From assembly GCF_013410405.1 (NCBI RefSeq), contig NZ_JACCFK010000001.1, positions 1,116,001 through 1,180,000 of the forward strand: a DNA stretch of 64,000 nucleotides, given 5' to 3'. Positions within the stretch are counted from its first letter, which is position 1. Each line of letters starts with the position of its first letter. This DNA comes from Amycolatopsis endophytica (lineage in GTDB: Bacteria > Actinomycetota > Actinomycetes > Mycobacteriales > Pseudonocardiaceae). The notes under the pieces were generated by a model, which was not told the origin of the DNA, made no database searches, and worked only from the letters and a program-made list of their open reading frames with translations. Made by a program: the position numbers and the translations under genes. Shown here one piece after another: positions 4,134-27,506 of this stretch.

Positions 4134-4140
4134 CCGGCGC

Positions 4141-4369
4141 GCGAGTCCCACCCTCCGGGGCGCGAGTGCTGCGTCGCGGGGCGCGAGCCCCACGCTCCCG
4201 CGCGCCAGTGCTGCGTTGCGGGGCGCGAGTCGCACGGTCCCGCTCGAGTCCCACGGTCCCGCGCGCGAATCCTGCGTTCCCGAGCGCGAGCCCCACGCTC
4301 CCGCGCCCGAGTCCTGCGTCCCCGACCGCGAGTCCCACCCTCCGGGGCGCGAGTGCTGCGTCGCGGGGC
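4141..4369. repeat. Tandem array of eleven 21-bp units
   Basis: Eleven imperfect units (nine of 21 bp, two of 20 bp) with rough consensus GCGAGTCCYRCGYTCCCGCGC fill the space between two convergent genes. Units start at 4141, 4162, 4183, 4204, 4225, 4245, 4265, 4286, 4307, 4328 and 4349. Units 1-2 (4141-4182) recur exactly as units 10-11 (4328-4369), which suggests duplication within the array. No open frame on either strand here looks coding. The 21-bp spacing equals two helical turns. Function is unknown; a terminator, protein-binding array or simple slippage product are all possible. Confidence 0.85.
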
Positions 4370-4419
4370 GCGAAGCTTGCCGGTCGTGCGCGGGCTGGCG
4401 CCGGTGCCCGGCCGAGGGG

Positions 4420-23704: not shown

Positions 23705-25213
23705 ATGTCGATCACCACTCCGCCACGTCCGGGCGGGCCGACGGGTTCGCCGCCGCCGAGGGGCCGTCCGCAGGGTCCGCCGCCGCGCCAGGGCAGGCCG
23801 GGAGGACCGGCAGGCGGGCCGGGAGGCCCCGCCGGACCACGCGGCCCCGGAGGCCCGGGGGGACCCGGAGGCCCCGGCGGTCCAGGCGGGCCCGGTGGCC
23901 GCGGCCCCGGAGGACCGGGTGGTCCCGGTGGCCCGAGCGGTCCGCCGCCCGCGCAGCCGCCCGCCGAACGCCCGGCACCGGTCGCTCCCCCGGCACGCCG
24001 CCGCGTCCTGAACACGCGGCTCGGCCCGATCCCGGTGACCAACCTCGTCGTGCTGGAGATCGGGCTGGCGATCGGCCTGATCCTCATCGCGATCAACGAG
24101 TCACTGCTCTACGTCGGCATCGGCGTGCTCGCCGTCGCCTTCATCGTCGCGATCCTGCGGTGGGGCGGTCAGTGGTTCACCCAATGGGTGGGTCTGACCA
24201 TGCGGTACTCGTTCCGCGGCCACGACAGGGCGTCGACACCGCCCAAGCCGGACGCACCGGCCATCGCCGCCGGTGAGGTCTCCGTCACCGGCCCGGAGGA
24301 CACGCGCGTCAGCCTGCTCCGGCTCGTCGTGCCGGACCTCGTGGTCGCGCACGGCAAGGACCACGAGCTGCAGGAAGTCGGGCTCGCCTGGCACGACGGC
24401 ACGTGGACCGCGGTCCTGCTCGTCGAGCCGGCGCCCGCCCTGATCACGCAGGCGGGCGGGGCGCCGAGCCTGCCGCTCTCGGCGCTGGCGCCGACGCTGG
24501 AGGACCGCGGCGTCGTCCTGGACTCCATCCAGATGATCTGGCACTGCTACCCCGGCAGCGCGGCCCTGCCCGCCGACTCACCTGCCCTGACGTCCTACCT
24601 GGAGGTCCTCGGCCCGCTGCCCGCCGCGGCGCGGCGCACGACGTGGGTCGCGATCCGGCTGGACCCGCGGCGCTGCCCGGACGCGATCCGCGAACGCGGT
24701 GGCGGCGTCGTCGGCGCGCACCGGGCGTTGATCGGCGCGCTGTCCCGGGTCCGCAACGCCCTGGAGTCGCAGGGCGTGCCGACGCGTCCGCTCAGCCCGG
24801 ACGAGCTGCTGCGCGCGGGCATCTCGGCCGCGGAGCTGACCGCGGCCGTCGCCGGGGGTTCGCGGGTGACGTTGAAGGAGAACTGGACCAGCGCGACCGC
24901 GGCGGGCATCGGTCACGCCAGCTACGCGATCAGCAGCTGGCCGAAGGGCAAGATCACGACCACGCTGAACGCGCTGACGAGCGTCCGGACGCTGTCCTCG
25001 ACGGTGGCGATGGCCATTTCGCCCGCGGAGGACGAGGGCAAGGTCGCGCTGCGTGGCGTGGTCCGGGTGAGCGCACGCAACCCGCGTGAACTGGACACCG
25101 CGGACGAGCGGCTCAACTCGCTCGCCGACCGCGCCGGCGTGTCGCTGACCCCGCTGCGGGGCCTGCAGATCGACGCGCTCGCCGCGACGATGCCGATGGG
25201 AGGCACCGCATGA
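23705..25213 (+). CDS. eccE: Type VII secretion protein EccE with a collagen-like N-terminal tract
   Basis: A peripheral subunit of the ESX membrane complex, 502 residues. The first 95 residues are an unusual Gly/Pro tract with long runs of GGP triplets. They precede two adjacent transmembrane helices at about 110-150 ([17 protein letters not shown] and [16 protein letters not shown]) and a soluble C-terminal domain. The helices and the soluble domain match EccE. The ATG at 23705 is the only sensible start. The stop overlaps the next gene by 4 bp (ATGA). M. tuberculosis ESX-4 lacks eccE, so its presence marks the fuller version of the system. Confidence 0.88.
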
Positions 25214-25929
25214 GCCTGCGGCTTCGTGACCCGGGCCGTCACTCGGGTGTCGCGCCGGAGTTCGTGGTGGACCCGGTGCTGCTGGACGCGGTCAGCCCGT
25301 CCGGTGACCGGGGCGGCATCGTCGTCGGTTCGGGCCTCAAGGGCGAGCCGCTGACGATCTCGGCACTGCGCGCCCAGCCGACGCGCATCGTGCTGGTCGG
25401 TGGTCTGTACCTGGCCCGGCAGGTTGCGCTGCGGGCGATGGCCGTCGGGGCGTGGGTGACCATCGCCACCGGTCGCCCCGCGGCCTGGCAGGTGCTGCCG
25501 AAGGCCGCGGGCCAGTCGAACGGCCGTCCGTCGCCACTGGTGACGATCCGGCGGCTGTCACCGGTCGAACTGCCGCGCCCGTCGGAGGACGCCCCGCTGC
25601 TCGTGGTCACCGACGGCGGCCCGACCCCGCAGGACCTGTTCCCGCCCCGCTCACCGTGGCACACGACGGTCTACGTGCTGCCCTACCTGCACCCCCAGGC
25701 CACGACGATCGCGAACGCGGCCGATGTCGTGTTGATGCAGCGCCTGCCCGCCGGACAGGCCGATCTGGCCGCCCGGATCTGGCGCCTGCCGCCCCAGATG
25801 GTGCGCCAGTTGACGACGTTGAAGGACGACCAGGTGGTGGCGCTGGGCCAGAACCTGTGGCGGCCGTTGCGTTTGGTGACGACGCCGAAGGAGCAGCAGC
25901 TGCTGGGACCGGTTCGTCGCGGGGATTGA
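25210..25929 (+). CDS. Unknown protein translationally coupled to eccE
   Basis: A 239-residue protein starting with an ATG that overlaps the eccE stop (ATGA). No signal peptide, membrane helix, Walker motif or catalytic signature is evident. It appears soluble and mixed alpha/beta. Hydrophobic strands such as PTRIVLVGGLYLARQVALRA and TPLLVVTDGG-type patterns suggest a Rossmann-like core. The C-terminus is helical and basic (IWRLPPQMVRQLTTLKDDQ). It is the last gene before a large palindrome, so it ends the operon. Tight coupling suggests a cytoplasmic partner of EccE; this is inference only. Confidence 0.75.
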   Translation: MSLRLRDPGRHSGVAPEFVVDPVLLDAVSPSGDRGGIVVGSGLKGEPLTISALRAQPTRIVLVGGLYLARQVALRAMAVGAWVTIATGRPAAWQVLPKAAGQSNGRPSPLVTIRRLSPVELPRPSEDAPLLVVTDGGPTPQDLFPPRSPWHTTVYVLPYLHPQATTIANAADVVLMQRLPAGQADLAARIWRLPPQMVRQLTTLKDDQVVALGQNLWRPLRLVTTPKEQQLLGPVRRGD

Positions 25930-25941
25930 GGCAGGTCTTGT

Positions 25942-26549
25942 AGCCGCTACGCGGGTTTCTCAAGCGCCGGGCTCGCAAGCTCGCAGTCGATTGCCCCTCC
26001 CGGACCCGATCCGTCAGTGTTTTGGCGATCGAGCAGACGCGTCAAGGCGGGAAAACGTGCCTTGACCCGCCTGATCGACCGCCAACGACGGCCGGGGATC
26101 GGTTGCGGGAGAGGAAAGCCCGGCAGACAAGGCGCCGGGTCGCCTCCGCGCTGCCGGGCGCAGCCCGCGAACGTGGAGTTCGGCAAACACGGCGCCCCGA
26201 GCGGCCAACACGCCGCCGGGAACGGCAAACACGGTGCCCGGAGCGGCCAACACGGCGCGGCGCGCGGCGTGTTGGCCGCTCCGGCTGGCGTGTTTGCCGT
26301 TCCGGTTGGCGTGTTGGCTCTTCCGGGCGGCGTGTTTGCTCTTCCGGGACACCACTCACCCGCACAACCGCCGCCCGGCAACGGAACCCGGCCACCCAGC
26401 CGCCCAGTCCTCCCCCGCACCCCGATACACAGCCCAGTTCTGCGGCCGATCAGGCGGAGTCAAGGTACTCTTTCCCGCCTTGACACCGCCTGCTCGGCCG
26501 CAGAAACAATGAAAAATCGGGGCGGCCACAGTCCCTCCGCGTAGCGGCT
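25942..26549. repeat. 610-bp nested palindromic element
   Basis: Three nested inverted repeats occupy the spacer between convergent genes. The outermost is a perfect 13-bp pair (AGCCGCTACGCGG at 25942-25954 and its complement at 26537-26549). The middle is a pair of imperfect arms of about 110 bp (about 26009-26120 and 26405-26515) sharing GTCAAGGCGGGAAA and CGCCTGATCG. The core is four direct 21-bp units (26181-26264) followed by four inverted ones (26266-26349). Units alternate between CAAACAC and CCAACAC so that each pairs with its mirror image. No open frame inside looks coding. It could act as a very large bidirectional terminator or be a mobile or structural element. Confidence 0.85.
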
Positions 26550-26570
26550 CCACACCCCAACCCACACCCC

Positions 26571-26599
26571 TGTGGACAACCCCTGTGGATTGTGGATAA
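26571..26599. other. DnaA-box-like cluster
   Basis: On the minus strand TTATCCACA (26591-26599) and TTGTCCACA (26571-26579) are two exact DnaA-box sequences. A third partial match lies between them. They lie between the palindrome and the truA stop. No AT-rich unwinding region or dnaA/dnaN gene is nearby, so this is not an origin on present evidence. Confidence 0.5.
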
Positions 26600-26600
26600 C

Positions 26601-27506
26601 TCAGGACGCCTCGGAAGCCGCGCGCATGTTCCGCGTCTGCTCCGCCCGCACCGCCAACTCCGAATCCGCCGGGTAGTCGACCCCGATCAGGGTCAAGCCA
26701 TGCGCCGGAGCCACCGCACTGTCCCGCACCCCACCACGCAGCAAATCCGCCGGCCAGGAAACCGGTCGTCGACCATCCCCGACCAGCAGCATCGCGCCCA
26801 CCAGGCTGCGGACCATCGAGTGACAGAACGCATCCGCCGAGACCTGGGCTTCCACGACGTGCGTGTCGATGCGCCGCCACGTGAAGCGTTGCAGCTCGCG
26901 GATCGTCGTGCCGGTCGCGCGCTGCTTGCAGAACGCGGCGAAGTCCCGCAGGCCCAGCAGTGCCTCGGAAGCCTCGTTCATCGCCGTCAGGGACAGCGGG
27001 CGTCCCCACGCGAGAGTGTCGAACCGGTGCAGCGGATCGACGCCCCAAGCAGCGTCGGAGACCCGGTAGCGGTAGTGCCTGCGTACCGCGGAGAACCGGG
27101 CGTCGAAACCCTCCGGAGCCACCCGCGCGTCCAGCACCCGCACATCGCCCGGCAGGAACCGGTTCCAGCGGTGCTGCATCCGCTCCAGATCGGGAATGCC
27201 ACGGGAATCCACCGTGATGCGTCCCGCCGGGCCGGTGAACGGCTCCACGTCCGCGTGCACGACCTGCCCGGTCGCGTGCACCCCGGCGTCCGTACGGCCC
27301 GCCACCACGACCGACTTCGGCACGGCGGCGCCAGGGGGCTGCTTGGCGAGCGCCTCCTCCAGCAAGCCCTGGACCGTCCGTCGCCCCGGCTGGCGTGCCC
27401 ACCCCGAGAACCCCGTGCCGTCGTAGCTGACGTCCAGGCGCAGACGAACGAGCCCGCCCTCCCTGTCGGGAGAAGCGGGCTCGTCGCGGGAAAACTCAGC
27501 CGTCAG
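26601..27506 (-). CDS. truA: tRNA pseudouridine(38-40) synthase TruA (probable CTG start)
   Basis: Isomerises uridines 38-40 in the tRNA anticodon arm. The catalytic Asp is in [11 protein letters not shown] (Asp73 from this start). The N-terminus [18 protein letters not shown] is the family signature, so translation must begin upstream of it. The frame has no ATG or GTG between the in-frame stop inside rplQ and that signature. The best candidate is the CTG at 27506, which overlaps the rplQ stop as CTGA and has AAGGA at a suitable distance. This gives 301 residues, close to mycobacterial TruA. A CTG further in, at the signature itself, is the alternative. A hairpin lies in the 5' part of the frame. 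Confidence 0.85.
27449..27483 (-). other. Hairpin just after rplQ, inside the 5' part of truA
   Basis: CGAGCCCGC pairs perfectly with GCGGGCTCG, with an inner TCTCCC/GGGAGG extension around a 4-nt loop. It starts about 20 bp after the rplQ stop. It may attenuate transcription from the ribosomal operon into truA or regulate truA translation. Confidence 0.6.

Follow-up and report, generated by a model that had tools for sequence, protein, structure and literature searches.

In Amycolatopsis endophytica, the eccE operon is separated from truA by a spacer of 671 bp. It holds a long palindrome, and this palindrome is one copy of a dispersed family of mosaic palindromic repeats, not a one-off structure. 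Members of the family keep a constant order of modules, lie preferentially in convergent spacers, covary along a hairpin stem and turn over at orthologous sites. The original prediction proposed a genome search for the arm sequence and the 21-bp unit, and it was this search that revealed the family. We think it probable that the palindrome is a full-length copy of a lineage-specific, BIME-like mosaic repeat, which spreads between sites and species and most likely acts as a bidirectional terminator without a U tract. Two of the roles first suggested for it, a mobile element and a giant terminator, are both close to this reading, the family being dispersed, patchy and biased towards convergent spacers. 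All coordinates refer to the window, by which we mean the whole stretch of 64,000 nucleotides that was analysed; the genome comprises 7.2 Mb in two contigs and is 96.6% complete. The features of the locus are the following.

25210..25929, + strand: flanking gene of 239 aa, the terminal gene of the eccE operon, with its stop at 25929
25930..26600, no strand: convergent spacer of 671 bp, wholly occupied by the mosaic element (from the flanking stops and the self-palindrome)
25939..25954, + strand: T module, left end (TAGCCGCTACGCGGGT at 25941), 11 nt past the stop codon
25996..26111, + strand: H element, type B; apex GTCAAGG...CCTTGAC at 26041-26066, stem 26022-26048 / 26059-26085
26112..26180, + strand: linker from the type B H to the core; CTGCCGGGCG is a variant of the conserved GTTGCCGGG motif
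26181..26258, - strand: left half of the core, four 21-bp units (GGCGTGTTKGC... on the minus strand)
26266..26347, + strand: right half of the core, four 21-bp units
26349..26413, - strand: linker from the type A H to the core, containing GTTGCCGGGCGGCGG
26414..26529, - strand: H element, type A; apex at 26459-26484, stem 26438-26465 / 26478-26505
26537..26552, - strand: T module at the truA end, diverged, 94% complementary to the left T module
26601..27365, - strand: flanking gene truA (tRNA pseudouridine synthase), PF01416, E 2.3e-26

Positions 26005-26521 (spacer positions 76-592, 517 bp) form one imperfect palindrome, which aligns to itself at 70.1% over 539 columns in a gapped alignment. 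The H-bearing arms reach 80% identity over 80 bp, and both values exceed the level of about 60% below which the arms would have told against the original prediction. The self-alignment scored 227, whereas the best of 200 dinucleotide shuffles reached 43, and folding of both strands, as had been suggested, gave structures far more stable than shuffled sequence (z-scores of -15.8 for the plus strand and -13.6 for the minus strand, 20 shuffles per strand). Taken together, these values rule out a chance palindrome. The nesting originally described was likewise confirmed, from the terminal 16-mers (25939-25954 / 26537-26552, 94% complementary) through the H arms to a core with four 21-bp units on each strand, whose 77-nt arms are 83% complementary (26183-26259 / 26263-26339). 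The H element, of about 110 bp, carries a 7-bp apical stem and a 12-nt loop, and the T module opens with (G)TAG ahead of a CCGC-TAC-GCGG hairpin.

The palindrome does sit in the spacer, although it does not fill it exactly as had been claimed, since 48 bp beside truA fall outside it. Similarly, the flanks are indeed truA and the last gene of the eccE operon, but the adjoining gene is the 239-aa gene and not eccE, the EccE family match being at 24035-25210. Family searches returned no Pfam or NCBIfam match for the 239-aa gene, and truA scored 116 bits against TIGR00071, under the cut-off of 142.85. No T-tailed hairpin of the canonical terminator kind was found at the gene ends flanking the spacer; the single one within it (26139-26119, minus strand) compares with 0.8 expected from shuffles. 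A search of Rfam over 25400-27000 gave 12 matches at E ≤1, none of them above the gathering score and 8 of them to miRNA-precursor models.

Genome-wide, the H 14-mer GTCAAGGCGGGAAA occurs 52 times exactly and a further 19 times at one mismatch, and the 32-bp core pattern (a pair of 21-bp units) matches 222 times at up to two mismatches; the reversed control gave 0 in both cases. The T module (TAGCCGCTACGCGGGT, up to one mismatch) has 30 copies and a second 21-bp unit type, v, has 142 pattern matches, each with 1 match in its reversed control. A T pattern requiring the second hairpin proved too narrow, with 3 matches. Elsewhere in the window, a 286-bp convergent spacer at 4134-4419 is filled by a v-type 21-bp array (GCGAGTCCYRCGYTCC), its units all in one orientation. 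Across 60 fetched loci and the window, module order and polarity are constant and the core units face outward on both sides. H faces the core, mostly from 110-170 bp away, the exceptions being L010 and L011, where it lies farther off, and L017, which is irregular. The sequence upstream of H is either T, accompanied by small palindromes, or a different conserved module (CATCCCGGAGCC...GTCCGGCGAGGAC...); on its downstream side, GTTGCCGGG precedes the core. The composite element measures 250-670 bp. Moreover, when 47 spacers of 300-1000 bp were ranked by palindrome score, the top ten were all element-bearing. We did not find the family described in searches of a full-text collection with few subscription journals, and it may have been described elsewhere.

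Genomic location was assessed in a sample of 800 kb with 791 called genes, made up of 40 stretches of 20 kb at even spacing. A spacer was counted as element-bearing if it held H, or T, or at least two u or v units, because 11-nt core motifs taken singly at one mismatch turn up inside genes as well (47/121 for u and 63/88 for v in this sample). Elements were present in 17 of 129 convergent spacers as against 7 of 622 others (p 5e-9). The latter comprised 6/490 co-directional and 1/132 divergent spacers, as called by a codon and hexamer caller made for the analysis, which misses genes, so some spacers counted as co-directional may be convergent. With spacers restricted to at least 150 bp, the figures were 12/31 convergent and 6/102 others (p 3e-5), and none of the 8 H or 10 T copies of the sample lay inside a called gene. 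The loci fetched for carrying elements divided into 38 convergent, 19 co-directional and 2 divergent (n=59), as compared with 35/304 convergent among their other spacers. Among the matches listed for named relatives, H-bearing spacers were convergent in 46 cases, co-directional in 29 and divergent in 4 (n=79), other spacers were convergent in 105/701, and H fell inside a called gene twice. The convergent bias was weaker in 18 H spacers from 20 further stretches of other genomes (7 convergent, 10 co-directional, 1 divergent; 12/77 of the other spacers convergent), a set that overlaps the named-relative set, its G035 stretches being Actinokineospora loci counted there. The T module is anchored at stop codons: over all 30 genome copies, 29 are in sense with the upstream gene, 26 start between -3 and +25 nt from its stop codon and 22 lie in spacers called convergent, whilst in 9 the TAG of T doubles as the stop codon itself.

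This location and stop-codon anchoring, the simple hairpins without a U tract that occupy this position in some relatives and the U-tract-free 3′ ends known elsewhere together point to bidirectional termination. In Streptomyces clavuligerus, 353 of 535 structured 3′ ends lack a U tract (PMC8269248), and a stable hairpin without a U tract, with T at stop codons, favours termination at our element too. We therefore hypothesise that the elements move between sites and species, settling mostly in convergent spacers and running from the stop codons onward in the order T, H hairpin, linker, inverted 21-bp array, linker, H hairpin, T. A transcript from either side would then form very stable hairpins at which RNA polymerase would stop or the 3′ end would be fixed, and convergent transcripts would thereby be kept from colliding. 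The dispersal of the modules, the covariation of the H lower stem and the differing occupants at two gene pairs support this reading as well. Neither the want of a canonical terminator at the gene ends nor that of pairing among the core units beyond the family consensus favours termination. Further observations count against it, namely that simple terminator-like hairpins stand beside H in some spacers (by eye, at L027 and L037) and that some copies occupy the co-directional (6/490) and divergent (1/132) spacers noted above, with 10 of 18 being co-directional in other genomes. In spacers of at least 150 bp, simple hairpins at gene ends were no rarer with the element (4/24) than without it (4/38, p 0.70). 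A depletion of simple hairpins at element ends was considered and rejected, as the pooled difference (17/110 against 53/140, p 1e-4) was lost when lengths were matched; the grid sample taken by itself gave 6/32 element-bearing ends against 37/112 (p 0.13). In other Amycolatopsis, perfect-looking long hairpins (e.g. around ACGAATGTGGCTTTCGAGAC) share spacers with H (L295, L296, L301, L302 and L303), and these may be further repeated terminators.

The H hairpin is maintained by pairing. We compared 161 copies with 124 distinct arm pairs, drawn from the A. endophytica loci and from named relatives among the matches listed, with pairs counted outward from the apex without gaps. Lower-stem positions 1-16 were Watson-Crick in 89.2% of cells. 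When right arms were dealt among copies, the average was 43.7% and the highest of 200 shuffles 49.2%. Thirty cluster representatives gave 88.1% paired as against 41.7% reshuffled (maximum 51.0% in 500). Pairing within copies is thus far above that between copies. The most conserved part of H is its centre and not its ends, the stem varying with compensation; the near-invariance of the apex is partly by construction, as copies were found by their apex (exactly, or with up to 5-6 mismatches inside loci). RNAalifold on a gapped H alignment returned a poor consensus because the subfamilies differ by one base pair. What looks like a single H site in three species (L105, L138 and L177, which share neighbour proteins) carries compensated stem changes and an exchanged loop.

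Stem mismatches in the 124 arm pairs, read in the H-sense orientation, included 107 A.C and 11 G.U. An A.C mismatch is a G.U on the opposite strand. G-U pairs made up 0.55% in the H-sense orientation, and over the 30 clusters there were 27 A.C, 5 G.U and 25 other mismatches (p 1e-4), with simple clustering as the only guard against relatedness in these counts. Wobble is therefore tolerated mainly on the antisense strand, which would be the one read by transcripts from the farther gene. The bias may reflect selection on the antisense RNA or strand-biased mutation. The folding energy of the whole H showed no strand difference, 25 of 50 copies being better in sense.

We examined turnover at the truA / 239-aa-gene spacer in 19 genomes of the genus, in 16 of which it was bounded on both sides. 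It measured 0-159 bp in ten of these: 0 bp in G012, 6 in G011, 15 in G004, 28 in G005, 45 in G003, 47 in G001, 67 in G010, 107 in G002, 108 in G018 and 159 in G007. In G003 and G010 the spacer is hardly more than a single simple hairpin (32 bp at 94% and 38 bp at 92%, respectively). One H was present in G008 (513 bp), G015 (674 bp) and G016 (830 bp), and the doubled-H form occurred in A. endophytica only among the 19. G014 also carries one H, its partner gene not being found in the locus; the partner gene was likewise not found in the locus of G006, and the G017 locus stops at a contig end. Beside H in G015, G014 and G016 (L076, L077 and L070) stands a second, unrelated palindrome, self-aligned over some 150-165 bp at 72-78%, and a similar one occurs at L300. 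The spacers of G009 and G013 (L086 and L087; 1239 and 1358 bp) carry an inserted ORF with an inverted 21/22-bp array on either side. A DUF559-type gene, the family guessed by eye for this ORF, was rejected as a partner of the element, PF04480 having one match in the genome with no link seen.

At a second gene pair (L046), the nine best orthologues were inspected. The full element of A. endophytica (569 bp) is represented by half-elements in G014 (247 bp) and G006 (251 bp). In G015 and G017 its place is taken by nothing more than a 38/39-bp hairpin, in G010 (126 bp) by a palindromic hairpin, in G001 (285 bp) by a u array that runs with the opposite polarity and in G005 by 32 bp; no assignment was made for G002. 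By eye, no remnant of a simple hairpin was seen beside the element in G014, G006 or G000, and therefore the spacer looks replaced in its entirety rather than interrupted. Accordingly, neither of the two orthologous gene pairs offered a clean empty site at which a target-site duplication might show. With their naturally different occupants, these two gene pairs provide a ready comparison.

The strongest rival to a terminator is a purely selfish REP- or ERIC-like repeat, without host function, that survives only at sites where neither a gene nor a promoter is disrupted; we regard this as a real possibility, if on balance an improbable one. The palindromes would serve the mobility of the repeat as single-stranded DNA hairpins, and in a compact genome the tolerated sites would be convergent spacers. 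Such a repeat should be patchy, and the family is: the exact 26-nt H apex occurs in 62/390 genomes of the bacterial family and 5/46 genera, two of which (that of A. endophytica and g11) include genomes called Amycolatopsis at NCBI, and in genus g4 it was found in 1 of 16 genomes (8 copies). Moreover, the H subfamilies are species-specific and the 14-mer varies from 0 to 62 copies within the genus of A. endophytica. This patchiness, the species-specific subfamilies and the range in copy number speak for the spread by copying that our preferred reading presumes. A class-wide sample of 394 genomes had the apex in A. endophytica and once in G442, from another family; the latter copy (L285, G442:C23:3680-3705) is one exact apex close to where a contig of 3.8 kb ends, and may reflect transfer or contamination. 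A scan of species genomes returned at least 119 H stretches, in Amycolatopsis, Actinokineospora and Halosaccharopolyspora.

A selfish repeat would also account for an apex conserved in sequence and not in shape alone, for the simple terminators adjoining some copies and for the near absence of G-U in the H-sense strand, as a DNA hairpin predicts. However, tolerance leaves the stop-codon anchoring and sense bias of T (29/30) unexplained, and our searches for an agent of mobility count against it. The Y1/RAYT transposase family PF01797 had no match in the A. endophytica genome, whereas control genomes were positive in 5/14, and a RAYT partner was rejected on this basis. No recurrent neighbour gene family stood out near H; the largest protein cluster spanned 7 loci and appeared generic by eye, and some such clusters represent one site in several species. 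Searches of viral contigs with the exact apex pattern, and of plasmid and phage collections by blastn with the spacer, returned no match. The selfish and terminator readings are nevertheless compatible, in that a selfish repeat which terminates transcription would persist best in such spacers. We further suggest, as a speculation that we hold to be rather unlikely, that the elements are self-spreading "mobile terminators", which would copy into gene ends, anchored by T, oust the prior terminator and rewire 3′ ends by way of a non-RAYT protein that recognises hairpins.

The palindrome might instead be a site at the DNA level, its 21-bp arrays, spaced at two helical turns, binding a protein of the nucleoid or of DNA topology. 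One such site would be a gyrase-type target, which has been proposed for BIMEs and would remove the positive supercoils that build up where genes converge. The 21-bp spacing and convergent position fit such a site, as does GTGTT[GT]GC, which is nearly invariant over 34 arrays from a single genome that do not preserve mirror pairing, although this near-invariance is partly by construction, as the units were found by the motif. Nevertheless, the lower stem of H is clearly kept by pairing, and a 21-bp u array lies in reach of 29 of the 51 H copies but not of the other 22; we hold a DNA-level site to be very improbable.

The original prediction took the alternation of CAAACAC and CCAACAC, each facing its mirror copy, as a sign of whole-arm inversion or conversion at a single locus. 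The mirroring holds for 4/4 unit pairs in this palindrome; it is not supported as a rule of the family, as mirror pairs match in T/G state in 56/93 cases across 34 arrays, with 48.9 expected by permutation (p = 0.058). Mirror units are alike at 16.2 of 21 positions, as are units of different arrays (16.2), and across the 34 arrays we found no pairing of core units beyond the family consensus. Among the A. endophytica stretches fetched, the truA half of the palindrome matches L021 at 93.6% identity over 264 bp and the opposite half matches L055 at 83.7% over 326 bp, whereas the two halves share only 70.5% identity. Judged by upstream sequence, 51 H copies fall into subfamilies A (15), B (8) and C (24), with 4 unclassified; all four spacers with two H combine an A and a B type, and from their sequences the two arms here belong to different subfamilies. 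Since each half is closer to other loci than to its partner, this copy was not made by inverting one arm, and we reject an origin by inversion or conversion as extremely improbable.

If our reading is right, it describes a REP/BIME-like system of unusual size in actinobacteria that is tied to gene ends. It would bear on how convergent genes are insulated in high-GC bacteria with few U-tract terminators, and on the turnover of terminators. Moreover, several copies lie at contig ends of draft assemblies (e.g. L092, L094, L099, L104 and L166), which is of practical importance when genomes of these antibiotic producers are assembled.

Among known systems, the element works like a BIME, and we do not file it as a member of the RAYT-REP family. 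The REP literature describes high-copy extragenic palindromes of 20-40 bp, tagged GTAG or CGTC with the GTAG class tied to RAYTs, which form inverted pairs, often heterodimers, with conserved accessory motifs, lie downstream of genes, for the most part where ORFs converge or run in one direction, and have untagged REP-like counterparts mentioned in M. tuberculosis (PMC3733652); the term actinobacteria is absent from that paper. For mosaic architecture, BIMEs served as the comparison system (PMC2817692). Like these, our family has many extragenic palindromic copies (52 H 14-mers, 222 core matches, 30 T) and inverted pairs with conserved linkers, the four two-H spacers all being A-B. It differs in the size of H (about 110 bp) and of the composite (250-670 bp), in lacking the GTAG/CGTC tag, the (G)TAG start of T being a resemblance only, in a genome without a Y1/RAYT gene, and in its near-invariant 26-nt apex, 21-bp core array and stop-codon-anchored T module. 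ERIC-type repeats are imperfect palindromes of near 127 bp, extragenic and patchy across species, for which we know of no transposase. H resembles them, and miniature inverted-repeat elements, in each of these respects, with a similar size, but it has a different host clade, is one module of a larger mosaic and is, to our knowledge, unrelated in sequence to ERIC. MITEs are conserved at their outer ends, whereas H is most conserved at its centre and varies, with compensation, along its stem. Lastly, the element shares with the U-tract-free "I-shaped" terminators of GC-rich bacteria (PMC8269248) a stable GC-rich hairpin at the gene 3′ end without a U tract. Those are single short hairpins, whereas the element here is modular, repeated and hundreds of bases long, has an apex of conserved sequence and is predicted to terminate transcription.
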